Positions 7,757 to 15,919 of a stretch of 40,620 nt of DNA are shown here, in pieces; the first letter of the stretch is position 1; each line of letters begins with the position of its first letter. Made by a program: the position numbers and the translations under genes. The notes beneath the pieces are model-generated. The model was not told where the DNA came from, did no database searches, and was given only the letters and a program-made list of their open reading frames with translations. This DNA comes from Chloroflexota bacterium (lineage in GTDB: Bacteria > Chloroflexota > Dehalococcoidia > Dehalococcoidales > JACPPQ01), in assembly GCA_016190925.1 (NCBI GenBank), contig JACPPQ010000152.1:1-40620 (forward strand), in the 5' to 3' direction.

Positions 7757-8668
7757 CTACTCAAGTGCAATCGTCCCGCTTTTTCCGCCGCTCTTTCTGG
7801 ACAGGCGAATTTCTTCGAGCCTCATACCCCGGTCGACCGCCTTGCACATATCATAGATGGTCAGTCCCGCAATGGCAACTGCGGTTAGCGCTTCCATTTC
7901 AACCCCGGTCTTGCCCGTGCTTTTCACCGCAGCAACAATTTCCACGGCGCTGTCAGCCTTATGCAAGACAAAATCGACCTTGGCCTCGGAGATTTGGATA
8001 GGGTGGCACAGAGGAATCAGAAAGGGTGTCTGCTTGGCCGCCATGATTCCGGCAATCCGGGCTACGGCGAGAACGTCCCCTTTGGGCATCCCCCCTTTGC
8101 TTATCATCTCGAAGGTCGAAGGCTGCATCCTGACCAGACCTTTTGCAACCGCTTCCCGCAGAGTGTCCGGCTTTTCTCCGATGTCCACCATGCGGGCACG
8201 GCCTGCCTCGTCCAGGTGGGTCAATTCCTTCTTCACCGGAACCCCGGACGTTTCCTTCTCCGCCGAGGGCGCAACCGCAGCAGCTTCAACTCGACCTGCC
8301 AATCCAAAAGCCAGCTCATGCGCATCCTTGTGAAAGGGACTGGTATTGCGGTAAGCCCACTCCCACCTGACCTTACGCTGTTTAACGGCCTGGTCAAGCT
8401 TCTCCCACAGGTCGACATTGGCTTTCCTCTGCCATCCCTGGGTCATACAGCCGAAGAGATACTGGCTGTCAGTGTGAACAACGACCTCCGAGTTTTGTGG
8501 AGTCTTGAGGATGCCTTCGAGGGCGGCGGTGATTTCCATGCGGTTGCTGGTGGTGTTTTTGGCGGTGCCGGAAAAGAGGTTTTTTTTACCGTCCTCAACG
8601 ATAACAACGCCCCAGCCACCCTGCCCCAGCCCCGGGTTATAGGCGCCGTCAGTATAGAGCTCAATCAA
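7757..8668 (-). CDS. moaC: Ribonuclease H / MoaC fusion protein
   Basis: Two domains are joined in one frame. Residues 1-125 are RNase HI-like: YTDGAYNPG (Asp7), MEITAALEG (Glu45) and HTDSQYLFG (Asp67) give three catalytic carboxylates. The usual GHxGH loop is absent and the fourth position reads DAHELA, placing His where most enzymes have Asp. Residues about 148-303 are MoaC, cyclic pyranopterin monophosphate synthase, the second step of molybdenum-cofactor synthesis: [29 protein letters not shown] and [12 protein letters not shown] are intact. The TTG at 8668 lies 2 nt after the moaA stop and follows AGGTAGGGGG; the longer frame from 8746 would overlap moaA by 76 nt. Translational coupling with moaA is likely. 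Confidence 0.88.
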
Positions 8669-8670
8669 GT

Positions 8671-9654
8671 CTATCCCCCTACCTGAGAGAACGGGCGGTC
8701 TTTGGGCACTCGACCTTCTGACAGATGATGTTGGAGAGGCTTGCAAGCAGCAGCTTTTTCGATAAGGAGCTTCAACTCCTCCGATGATATGCCGCTGCGC
8801 AGGGGTTTTCGCAGGTCTATCTCATTCTCGGACAGCAGGCATGGCCGCAGTTTGCCATCGGAGGTAAGCCGCAGACGGTTGCACTGGAAGCAGAAATGTT
8901 CGGTGACCGGCGTAATGAAGCCCACTGTGCCCTTCGCGCCGGGAAAGCGGAAGTACTTCGCCGGGCCATTGCCGACCCCAGCCTGGCAGGGTTCAAGCTG
9001 CCCCAATGTTTCGATATTCTTCCTCATATCGTTCACGGACACAAAAGATGCAGCACTCGCACCGTCACCGAAGGGCATATGTTCGATAAACCGGATATGC
9101 CATTCATCGTCAATGGTTTTGGCGGCAAAATCGATAAGCTCATCATCGTTCATGCCAGCCATGACCACCACGTTAATCTTTACAGGTTTAAGCCCGGCGG
9201 ACTTCGCTGCCTTAATACCTTCCAGGACATCGGCAACACCGTATGCGCCACGCGTAATGGACCTGAAGCGTTCATCTTTGAGAGTGTCCAGGCTGACATT
9301 CACTCGACGCAAACCGGCCGATTTCAGCTCGGTGGCATAGCGGGCAAGGAGTATGCCATTGGTGGTCATGGAAATGTCATCGATTGCCTCTATGCCTGCC
9401 AGCATGCGGACCAGTTCCGGCAGTCCCAGTCGTACCAGGGGTTCGCCGCCGGTGAGCCTGACCTTGTTTATGCCTGCTGCTGCGGCCGCTTTAGCTACGG
9501 TATAAATCTCCTCGTAGGTGAGGATGTCCGCATGGGGCATGGGATGGATGCCATCGAGGGGCATACAGTAGGCGCAGCGCAGGTTACAGCGGTCGGTCAC
9601 GGAGATACGCAGGTAGTTGATGGGACGCTGGAAAGAGTCAGAAAGTCCGGTCAT
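8671..9654 (-). CDS. moaA: GTP 3',8-cyclase, radical SAM enzyme
   Basis: MoaA converts GTP to the cyclic precursor that MoaC turns into cPMP. The 327-residue protein has the radical-SAM cluster motif Cys23-x3-Cys27-x2-Cys30 (CNLRCAYC), the SAM-binding GGEPLVR segment, and the second MoaA-specific cluster ligands Cys255, Cys258 and Cys272. The C-terminus ends in Gly-Gly, which is needed for activity in MoaA. Its ATG overlaps the rdgB stop in an ATGA junction, and its stop is 2 nt before the RNase H/MoaC start, so all three are in one operon. Confidence 0.96.
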
Positions 9655-11418: not shown

Positions 11419-12015
11419 CTAATATTCGATTCCTTTTCGCGCTTTTATCCCCTTATCGAAAGGATGCTTTACCTTCCGCACCTCGGTGACCAGGTCCGCC
11501 AGCTCAACCAGCTTGTCCGGCGCGTAACGTCCGGTAAAGATAAGCTCGACCTTCTGCGGCTTCTCCTCGACCAGCTTGACCACATCCTCAACTTCTATCA
11601 GATTCCAGGAGGTGGCAACGTTCACCTCATCCATTACCACGAGGTCATATTTCCCACTCATGACCGCCTCGCGAGCGGCATCCAGAGCCAGTTTCGCCTG
11701 CTCCTTCTCCTCCTGCTTGACTTTATGCGGATTACAGAAAGATGTAAGGCCATACTTGGCGACAGTTACGTTCGGCAGCGTAGGCAGTGTGGCAAATTCC
11801 CCGTAGGGATAATCGCCCTTCATGAAGAAGACGATGAAAACACGCAGCCCCTGACCTGCCGCGCGGAGCACTGTGCCCAGGGCAGCCGTAGTCTTCCCCT
11901 TGCCATCGCCGGTGAAAATCTGGACCAGTCCCCGTTCGAAGGGTTGAGAGGAGGGTTTGAATTCTGATAGTTTTTTGCCCAATAAGCCCCCAACAGGTGT
12001 GTATAGCCGAGGCAT
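11419..12015 (-). CDS. cobO: Cob(I)yrinic acid a,c-diamide adenosyltransferase (CobO/BtuR type)
   Basis: The enzyme attaches the adenosyl group to cobalt in making coenzyme B12, the cofactor of the acyl-CoA mutase encoded near 31-33 kb. The P-loop GLVQIFTGDGKGKTTAALGT, then GLRVFIVFFMKGDYPYGEF, DLVVMDEVNVA and VELIFTGRYAPDKLVELADLVTEV, are characteristic. The start is uncertain: ATG 12015 is used here, GTG 12051 lengthens it by 12 residues, and TTG 11982 has a GGGGG tract 4 nt upstream and would also fit the family length. It is first in the cobO-fbp-rdgB-moaA-moaC run and is preceded by a structured leader at 12085-12202. A small inverted repeat, TGTTAG/CTAACA, spans 12030-12050. Confidence 0.92.
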   Translation of the reverse strand: MPRLYTPVGGLLGKKLSEFKPSSQPFERGLVQIFTGDGKGKTTAALGTVLRAAGQGLRVFIVFFMKGDYPYGEFATLPTLPNVTVAKYGLTSFCNPHKVKQEEKEQAKLALDAAREAVMSGKYDLVVMDEVNVATSWNLIEVEDVVKLVEEKPQKVELIFTGRYAPDKLVELADLVTEVRKVKHPFDKGIKARKGIEY

Positions 12016-12084
12016 GAGTGTAGCTATCTTGTTAGTGTAGCAATCTAACACGATGATGTCAAGAAGGCGAATTGCGGAACAAAA

Positions 12085-12202
12085 TACCGGGGTGGATATG
12101 GCGCAAAAGAGATTGGCGCTCCCGAAACGGGATGAAGCCTGACGCCCCAGCCTTTTTCATTCTCTGAAGCTGGTACTTGAGCCGCGCTCCACCACCCCGG
12201 TA
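12085..12202 (-). ncRNA. Candidate structured leader RNA of the cobO operon
   Basis: An 11-bp perfect inverted repeat (CCACCCCGGTA at 12192-12202, TACCGGGGTGG at 12085-12095) closes a 118-nt region, extended inward by GCGC/GCGC (12184-12187 with 12101-12104). Inside are two hairpins: CCAGC/GCTGG at 12147-12173, with an inner TTCA/TGAA pairing, and GGCG/CGCC at 12115-12146 enclosing TCCCG-AAA-CGGGA. The minus-strand promoter at 12208-12216 would start transcription right at the outer helix, and the first possible cobO start lies 33 nt beyond. It does not match the cobalamin riboswitch motifs I know. The strand is inferred from the promoter. Confidence 0.5.
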
Positions 12203-12207
12203 GTAAT

Positions 12208-12216
12208 ATTATACCA
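12208..12216 (-). promoter_or_regulatory. Extended -10 promoter for the cobO operon
   Basis: On the minus strand the sequence reads TGGTATAAT, a perfect -10 with the extended TGn element, which can replace a -35 box; no good -35 is visible. The predicted start is near 12201, at the outer helix of the leader RNA. The same TGGTATAAT occurs before the toxin-antitoxin pair near 21000. Confidence 0.55.
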
Positions 12217-12266: not shown

Positions 12267-12295
12267 TTGACAAGACGGAACTCGAGGGTTTACAT
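12267..12295 (+). promoter_or_regulatory. Promoter of the CorA-like gene
   Basis: TTGACA at 12267-12272 and TTACAT at 12290-12295 are separated by 17 bases. The start would fall near 12302, leaving about 40 nt before the chosen ATG 12342. Because this TTG belongs to the -35 box, it cannot be the start codon of the gene. Confidence 0.6.
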
Positions 12296-12341
12296 TTCTA
12301 CTGTTAAAATAATCATGACCAGTGTGAGTACGGAGGTCTGC

Positions 12342-13255: not shown

Positions 13256-15919
13256 CTATTTCTTCAACAGCTTGAGGAAGGTGGTGTCTCTACCAAATAT
13301 CAAAGCCAGCAGCCAGTCCTGGACTATCCTGATGCGGTTATAGTTGCCGGTGACCAGTAAAAGGTAAGCGCCGACCCACACCAGCCGCGCCAGAAAACCG
13401 TATAGCCGCAGGCCGTGAAAGCGGAGCATAGCCCTGGAAGCACCCAGAGAGATAATCTCCGCTGTATTGGAATAGTGATAACTCCTCTTATCCCTGCCCC
13501 GGATTTCCGCAAGGATGTTGTGGGCAACCACTTTGGCCTGGCGCACTGCTATGTGTGCCCGTGGTGGCACAGGCCTGCCTGAGTCCGGCGTTTTAAAATG
13601 GGCGCAATCACCAACGGCATACACCCCGGGAACCCCGGGCACCTCCATGTGCTTGTTAACTACAACCCGGCCAATGTTATCCCTGTTCACAGGAAGAGCT
13701 GCTATCTGTGGATTAGCCACCACCCCGGTTACCCAGATAAGGGTGCCGGCCGGAATGATTTCGTTGCCGTTGAGCTCGACGCGGTCATGCCAGACCCGTG
13801 TAATCTGCGACCTCAACCTCACCTCAATCCCCATGCGCTGAAGCGACCTCATGGCATAGGCGCCGAGACTGGTGTGCAATTCAGCCATAATCTTGGATTC
13901 AGCTTCAACCAGAACAATTCGCACATTATCGGGGGCTATTGCCCTGTGAAACTTTATCAGGCTCCTGTGGATGAAGTCCCTCAGTTCGGTCACCAGCTGG
14001 ATGCCGGTATAGCCAGCACCGGAGATAATGAAAGTGACCAGTTGCCTCTGCCGTTCGGGGTTTTTCTCCATGCTGGCCTGTTCGAATACCTCGATGATAT
14101 GGTTTCTGAGCACCATCGAGTCGTAGATGGTTTTCAAAGTGAAGATGTTTCCGCCATCCTTTTGCACGGCATCCAGGTGCCGCGTATCAGCTACACTGCC
14201 CAGCGCCATGACCAGATAATCGAAGTCAAAGGTGCCACCGCTGGTGGTTACTTTTCGCTCTTTAAGGTCTATTTGTTGAACAGTTGCTTGCACAAAATTA
14301 AATCTGTCCCTCCAGTTCAGCCTCCTGATAGGATAGGCTACGTGCCGCGTCTCTATCACTCCCATGGCAACCTCATGTAAAAGGGGGGAAAAGAGAAAGA
14401 AGTTTTCATCACTTATCATGGTGGTTTCGACATTCTCATTACGATTTAGAGAGGGGACCAGTCGCCGCAGCACATAGGTCCCGCCAAACCCGCTGCCCAG
14501 TATCAGGACCTTCCTTCCACCCACATGAAGACGTTTTGGTCTCGTAGTCTCTTCTTTGCGAAACAGGCCTCTCAAACCTTCCGTAGCCAGCGCCATAGCA
14601 AGCCTGCTCAGAGAAAGCGGGTTAAGGGCCATCCATGCCATGCTCCTGTACCTGTAGTTGCCGGTGAGCATGCCCCACACCGCTCTGGTGAAAGGCTGCG
14701 GACCTCGCGCATTGTTCTGCTCGTCACCAATAAGACGGTGTTGTGCCAGAAAGAAGTTGCGGGAATTTTTGGCCTTATCATTTATGCCGAACAATATCCG
14801 CCCCCACCGGTTATCCCGCTCGATACTGTTGCAAAACGGCTTATAATGATGCTCGAAATCCTGGCGGGATATGCCGTGGGAGACTGCCGTGCGGGCAGCC
14901 TGGCGGGCGGTCAACAGGGAGGAGCCGATGCCATCCTTATACAACCTGGTGACTGCGGCATCGCCGACAGCGACAAAGCGGTCTGCGTAGTAGTTGCGAG
15001 CAGCGCTAACCGCCGCCCTGGAGCGGCAGCCGCAGACACGCTCATAGCGCTCCGGCAGCATGCTCTTGACGATATCCTGGTTTAAGAAGTCCATAACAGA
15101 GACGGGACGTTCCTTTCCGCTGCTGAGTACCGAAACGCTCATAAAGGGTCCCTTGGGTACCAGCGTGCCGAAAACCATTCCCGAATGGGGAAGAAAAAAG
15201 GCATGCGCCGAGTTACCCAGGAGCGCCTGCACCTCGGCGGTCCCGACATAAAGCTCATCCTGGGCCAGCGCCTGCGTTCGCGGAGGAACATAATTGACCC
15301 CATCGACCTGGACAGGCTTGGAATTTACCCCCGATGCCAGCACCACCAGGTCGTGCTCAAGCTTTTGGCCTTCAACCTCTATCGCCGCCTCTTCGCCACC
15401 AAAGACACGGGATACCATCTTACCTTCCACCCTTGCTCCGCGTTTCTCGGCCTCACCCAGAAGCCAGCCGTCGAAGCTAACAGGTTTGTCATAGTGTGAT
15501 ATCCGAGGACCGCAGCCACGATAGACGCTGGCAATAGTGAGACCTTTCTCAGGATTATTGATGCTGATTGAGATGTAGGGGCTGTGGACGGCATAGTTTT
15601 CCACTTTGCTCTGGATTATCTCCTCAGGCACTTTCAGGCCAAGCTCACCCAGGTTACGAAGCAGAGACATGGAGAGGATTCCGGCGCAGCCCTTGCATCC
15701 CTTTGGGCCAAGTTCGCAGAAATTGCGCTGCTGGTAGATGGTGATGTCCGGCCGGATACCTCTTTCGGCGGCGTAGCGGAGGAGGTAGAGCGCAAAAAAG
15801 CTTCCCGCAGGGCCGCCGCCAATGATGGCAACCTTCGAGCCGTTTCCCAGTTTAGTCATATTTTTGTCCATGTCTAATTCACGAAACGCATATGCTCCAA
15901 TATTATCATAGTAGCTCAT
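13256..15919 (-). CDS. Two-flavoprotein fusion: geranylgeranyl-reductase-like plus NDH-2-like
   Basis: One 887-residue frame joins two complete FAD enzymes. Residues about 28-400 carry an FAD fold with VAIIGGGPAGS (34-39), a Cys cluster (68, 75, 78 in ELGPKGCKGCAG context) and DRFVAVGDAAVTRLYKDGIGSS at 314-334, as in geranylgeranyl reductases. Residues about 470-887 resemble type-2 NADH dehydrogenase: VLILGSGFGG (475-480), FLFSPLLHEVAMG, a second nucleotide fold FIISGAGYTGIQL (634-639), GVYAVGDCAHF, and a hydrophobic C-terminal anchor (LARLVWVGAYLLLVTGN). A tandem AATGAGCTAC duplication overlaps the start, and no strong ribosome binding site is seen; ATG 15871 is an alternative. The gene follows a UbiE-like methyltransferase on the same strand, suggesting a role with membrane isoprenoids or quinones. 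Confidence 0.85.
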   Translation of the reverse strand: MSYYDNIGAYAFRELDMDKNMTKLGNGSKVAIIGGGPAGSFFALYLLRYAAERGIRPDITIYQQRNFCELGPKGCKGCAGILSMSLLRNLGELGLKVPEEIIQSKVENYAVHSPYISISINNPEKGLTIASVYRGCGPRISHYDKPVSFDGWLLGEAEKRGARVEGKMVSRVFGGEEAAIEVEGQKLEHDLVVLASGVNSKPVQVDGVNYVPPRTQALAQDELYVGTAEVQALLGNSAHAFFLPHSGMVFGTLVPKGPFMSVSVLSSGKERPVSVMDFLNQDIVKSMLPERYERVCGCRSRAAVSAARNYYADRFVAVGDAAVTRLYKDGIGSSLLTARQAARTAVSHGISRQDFEHHYKPFCNSIERDNRWGRILFGINDKAKNSRNFFLAQHRLIGDEQNNARGPQPFTRAVWGMLTGNYRYRSMAWMALNPLSLSRLAMALATEGLRGLFRKEETTRPKRLHVGGRKVLILGSGFGGTYVLRRLVPSLNRNENVETTMISDENFFLFSPLLHEVAMGVIETRHVAYPIRRLNWRDRFNFVQATVQQIDLKERKVTTSGGTFDFDYLVMALGSVADTRHLDAVQKDGGNIFTLKTIYDSMVLRNHIIEVFEQASMEKNPERQRQLVTFIISGAGYTGIQLVTELRDFIHRSLIKFHRAIAPDNVRIVLVEAESKIMAELHTSLGAYAMRSLQRMGIEVRLRSQITRVWHDRVELNGNEIIPAGTLIWVTGVVANPQIAALPVNRDNIGRVVVNKHMEVPGVPGVYAVGDCAHFKTPDSGRPVPPRAHIAVRQAKVVAHNILAEIRGRDKRSYHYSNTAEIISLGASRAMLRFHGLRLYGFLARLVWVGAYLLLVTGNYNRIRIVQDWLLALIFGRDTTFLKLLKK

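Follow-up and report, generated by a model that had tools for sequence, protein, structure and literature searches.

Riboswitches of the SAM-I/SAM-IV clan are laid out around a closing helix, and the loop of their first hairpin pairs with the linker that follows a later hairpin. Bacterial Y RNAs (YrlA) are stand-alone RNAs with paired ends and a patchy distribution. Rare orphan structured RNAs of bacteria, backed by covariation and with no function assigned, have also been described (e.g., PMC2864571, PMC11109978). Three motifs from Chloroflexi were met among them: Chloroflexi-1, pan, and rdhA (PMC2864571, PMC11109978).

Here we consider an element at positions 12085–12216 of a window from a Chloroflexota bacterium, the window being the whole stretch of DNA that was analysed (40,620 nt). 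We regard it with good confidence as an independent small-RNA gene of the minus strand, with its own −10 box and a folded transcript. Its layout is similar to that of the SAM-I/SAM-IV clan in the closing helix and the loop-linker pairing. However, unlike the clan, it gives no Rfam match at E ≤ 10, is an independent gene with no constant gene downstream, and has another conserved core. Like 6S RNA (RF00013), it is an independent small RNA gene whose ends are paired in a closing helix, but it is shorter, contains several helices and a likely pseudoknot without the open-promoter-like rod, and does not match RF00013. With YrlA it shares the patchy distribution, the stand-alone position and the paired ends; in contrast to YrlA, it has no visible tRNA-like domain, and a Pfam scan of the neighbour proteins shows no TROVE/Ro60 gene. 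The likeness to the orphan RNAs of comparative genomics is that of a covariation-supported bacterial RNA. The Chloroflexi-1 and pan motifs are both in Rfam, which gives no match to the element, and the rdhA motif is a reductive-dehalogenase leader, unlike the element. Nothing matching the element was found in the literature searched.

Rfam 15 returns no match to the element at gathering score and none at E ≤ 10. The sequence-only reading had seen here an unassigned structured RNA with none of the known cobalamin riboswitch boxes, and on this result the element is neither a cobalamin riboswitch nor a member of another known riboswitch class, and keeps its unassigned status. Searches for tRNA and tmRNA (ARAGORN, Rfam) do not match the element either, and Rfam on the homologs tested yields chance hits only, none of them credible. 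A 5S-like resemblance on the plus strand was rejected, the real 5S being located elsewhere.

The ends of the element are marked by a perfect 11-bp inverted repeat, TACCGGGGTGG (12085–12095) and CCACCCCGGTA (12192–12202), spanning 118 nt, as had been noticed from the letters. Of 300 dinucleotide shuffles of the intergenic region (290 bp), 3 contain a perfect repeat of 11 bp or more, and several further 11-bp repeats occur elsewhere in the window; taken alone, the repeat is only moderately unusual. The fold of the element is stable on both strands (z of −3.5 on the plus and −3.7 on the minus strand), with no shuffle equally stable. It contains no long ORF, which bears out the earlier exclusion of a coding function. 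Just outside the repeat, on the minus strand, lies an extended −10 box, TGG-TATAAT (12208–12216; TATAAT at 12213–12208, TGG at 12216–12214), which is conserved among the homologs. The box is 6 nt upstream of P1 of the model (12201), and the predicted +1 is also 12201, at the foot of the closing helix, in agreement with the start proposed before. Across the homolog loci there is neither a conserved robust −35 box nor a conserved intrinsic terminator.

Homologs, covariance models and covariation together delineate a stand-alone structured RNA of about 118 nt (12085–12202, minus strand). The 5′ strand of P1 (12190–12202) pairs with its 3′ strand (12085–12098), and here covariation is seen: of the five outer pairs in the model, four have two-sided changes. 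P2 is formed by GCGC at 12184–12187 and GCGC at 12101–12104, again with covariation; its third pair is A-U, G-C, C-G or U-G across the homologs. The alignment and covariation also define the P3 hairpin (12136–12182), whose 3′ side carries the conserved GGGGCGUCAGG and whose loop is AGAGA, and the P4 hairpin UCCCG-UUU-CGGGA (12120–12132), which is followed by the conserved GCGCC. RNAalifold on an unfitted MAFFT alignment of five sequences gives 33 pairs, five of them with compensatory changes. In the 7-sequence alignment A5, which is fitted to the covariance model, 96.0% of cells are paired, against 87.1% in shuffled alignments and 35–50% in slid structures, two-sided changes occur at 10 of 33 pairs, and none of 500 shuffles reaches any of five covariation measures. 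The P1 of the most distant homolog, G844, reads UGAGCGGU/ACCGCUCA versus GCCGGGGU/ACCCCGGC, with most outer pairs exchanged and all still paired. Compensatory base changes, as expected of a structured noncoding RNA, are thus found across the homologs, and covariation supports the four predicted helices P1–P4. The covarying pairs that the sequence-only reading had proposed to look for are present, though among homologs outside cobO loci.

The loop of P3 (12161–12165, AGAGA) and the linker between P4 and P2 (12108–12112, UCUCU) likely form a pseudoknot, as the loop-linker pairing test suggests, although this is not proven. The consensus of the loop is GAGGU (GAGA here) and that of the linker is ACCUC (UCUC here). 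In the pseudoknot core 31 of 35 cells pair over seven manually aligned sequences, one pair showing a two-sided change (A-U here for G-C) and one being G-U, and the loop-linker pairing score is equalled by 11 of 5000 composition shuffles. Single-sequence MFE folds, which cannot represent a pseudoknot, depart somewhat from the consensus in the inner pairings.

Six homologs were found by DNA and covariance-model searches: five come from the same class, the sixth from a different class of Chloroflexota. Among the 393 genomes of the class, the DNA search gives near full-length matches of 74–77% in G175, G196 and G199 and a partial match of 81% in G212, which the covariance model extends to full length; each of these four genomes belongs to a different family. 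Blocks common to the aligned homologs are GGTGGTGGAGC, CAAGT-CCAGG-TC-GAGGTTGA, GGGGCGTCAGG, CGGGAGCGCC and CATATCCACCCCGGC. Covariance model R1 adds G275 (87 bits), where P1 is decayed and the −10 box is absent, and covariance models add G844 from the other class of the phylum (44 bits), where TATAAT stands at the same spacing. The element is carried by 6 of 393 genomes of the class, by 2 of 400 of the phylum, our own among the latter, and by 1 of 396 genomes from G844's class; because only a small number of candidates was scored for each genome in the large searches, divergent members may be missing from these counts. Each carrier has one copy. In a set of 41 genomes around G212, the only carriers are G212 and G175, and a complete genome of the same order as ours (G044, 1.36 Mb) gives no homolog at E ≤ 10. 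A seventh match reported in the class (L160, G354) lies inside ribosomal-protein genes and was set aside as chance.

The −10 box is the part of the flanks that the homologs share. TATAAT or TACAAT stands 6–7 nt before P1 in six of the seven loci, own included. Pairwise identity averages 0.27 and 0.23 upstream of the box and 0.26–0.28 downstream of the RNA; in the box itself it is 0.50, a value that the one locus with 7-nt spacing lowers because the comparison is ungapped. Homology, as judged from these loci, is confined to the −10 box and the RNA, with flanks at random identity.

The neighbour genes differ at all loci, and no neighbour gene is shared. At our locus the element lies between cobO and corA; elsewhere it adjoins a cutA/anthranilate-synthase-like region, a SNF2 helicase gene, a pRiA4b ORF3-like gene, a lipoprotein-like ORF and others. 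In G196 the neighbours are UPF0261 and a truncated rsmH, and the first gene downstream, DUF5679, is convergent and hence cannot be controlled by a leader. In G212 a second promoter-like site separates the RNA from mutL. At most loci the annotated gene that comes next has the orientation of the RNA, so that read-through is possible; with DUF5679 convergent in G196, however, co-orientation is not universal and does not count as evidence for a leader. For corA, one close relative with upstream sequence was available, and it has no similar stretch and no model match. Comparison of the loci thus reveals a conserved putative promoter box at fixed spacing and a conserved fold with no fixed gene context.

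Some of these loci have features of their own. In G196 (L283, 4973–5598) the homolog is next to the DUF5679 gene and to an rsmH that is short of about 170 residues at its N terminus, which suggests that this locus is a rearrangement breakpoint. Near the G199 locus there is a long near-perfect inverted repeat (L152, 53–165), to which Rfam assigns spurious microRNA-precursor matches.

The sequence-only reading had placed the element in front of the cobO-fbp-rdgB-moaA-moaC operon as a leader. A leader or riboswitch that acts in cis, is transcribed from the distal −10 box and senses a B12 or Moco intermediate would fit an element that is upstream of cobO and co-oriented with it, since a transcript reading on from this box would contain the element, and the closing helix with the pairing of the first-hairpin loop to a later linker does resemble riboswitch aptamers. 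We nevertheless consider this very improbable. A promoter-like site of the cobO operon, TTGACA-N17-TACACT with TG before the −10 (12034–12062, minus strand), is located downstream of the element and outside the RNA, and a promoter-like site of the divergent corA, TTGACA-N18-TACATT, occupies 12267–12296 on the plus strand. Hence, the element sits between two promoter-like sites, one for each neighbour. The pattern TTGACA-N16–18-TNNNCT, formulated after the loci had been inspected, precedes cobO at 19 of 30 loci of the order (18 of 29 relatives and our own), versus a shuffle mean of 0.16, most commonly as TTGACATGGCTGGG..TTGTTAAACT. The nearest cobO relatives of our genome are Dehalococcoidales MAGs, and the element is absent from all cobO loci of relatives that were searched (0 of 29 by genome search, 0 of 23 by contig search, the two sets overlapping).

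One detail of that reading is mistaken. Relatives have GGGGCTTCATTG as the start context of cobO, and its counterpart at our locus is GGGGGCTTATTG; the start of cobO is therefore most likely TTG at 11982, and not GTG at 12051, which had been taken as the first possible start 33 nt on and falls within the cobO promoter-like site. The 5′-UTR placement before a regulated gene that marks riboswitches is not what the sequence offers: a promoter-like site intervenes, and the downstream genes of the homologs are heterogeneous or convergent. The proposed sensing of B12 or Moco intermediates meets the same difficulty, with homologs beside unrelated genes and once before a convergent one, and Rfam gives no riboswitch match. 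A cis role for cobO is therefore unlikely, and the operon is presumably a chance neighbour of the RNA gene.

Several observations around cobO and its operon stand apart from the RNA. The conserved promoter signature of cobO, TTGACATGGCTGGG..GGTTGTTAAACT (12034–12062 in the window), recurs across the order (19 of 30 cobO loci among L038–L067), and its spacer is conserved too; the latter may be a regulator site. At one relative's locus (L064, G106) a stretch reading as a tRNA-Leu gene is directly before cobO, at the position of the relatives' promoter. In the window, a single minus-strand ORF (7760–8746) encodes an unusual fusion of an RNase H domain (residues 29–130) with MoaC (186–321), and an 887-aa ORF (13256–15919, minus strand) combines an N-terminal FAD-dependent oxidoreductase-like half with a type-II NADH dehydrogenase-like half.

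A mobile or selfish MITE-like element, with TA-flanked inverted repeats and no RNA function, is in our view very improbable. The patchy distribution in unrelated contexts, the terminal inverted repeats ending in TA, and the G275 homolog with its decayed P1 and missing −10 box are of the kind such an element would leave. However, it is in single copy in every genome, the P1 of G844 is mostly different in sequence yet paired, and constraint acts on the internal helices as well as on the −10 box; the plasmids, phages and fetched viral loci searched contain no match. A highly diverged housekeeping RNA (6S, SRP, RNase P, tmRNA, 5S or Y RNA) can hardly be credited: length and closing helix are loosely similar, and the 6S (RF00013) and small SRP RNA (RF00169) models find nothing in our own 87%-complete genome, but neither model matches the element, the Rfam and 5S results speak against it, the family is too rare and is missing from the complete genome of the same order, and the SRP domain IV motif is absent from the element sequence, as is from the alignment the tRNA-like T-loop that would mark a Y RNA.

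We suggest the following course of events for the independent RNA gene. Transcription of the RNA, as the promoter box predicts, would begin from the sigma-70 extended −10 box at the first base of P1. In the transcript P1 and P2 would enclose the P3 hairpin, an optional variable hairpin and the P4 hairpin, while the P4–P2 linker is probably paired with the P3 loop. The 3′ end of the RNA is presumably discrete and located at P1′ or beyond it. It would then act in trans via its three-dimensional fold, either with a protein or small-molecule partner or through a catalytic core. Action through the fold rather than by antisense pairing is most likely, because the conserved positions fall in helices and junctions, and a long unpaired stretch that could serve as an antisense seed is not evident; the rarity of the RNA family makes such trans action something that we infer. 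More tentatively, we put forward as one possibility that these stand-alone pseudoknotted RNAs form a class not described before, spread horizontally or widely lost in Chloroflexota, whose conserved core would be a protein scaffold, a trans ligand sensor or a ribozyme with no likeness to known families.

Last, the model supplies a precise sequence and a predicted 5′ end for the RNA and removes the lead of a B12/Moco leader as false. What emerges is a new RNA family supported by covariation, with a putative promoter box and a probable pseudoknot, of a general kind that is already known. Few noncoding RNAs of Chloroflexota are found in the literature searched, and among rare, single-copy, highly structured RNAs without a shared neighbour some have proved to have unusual functions.
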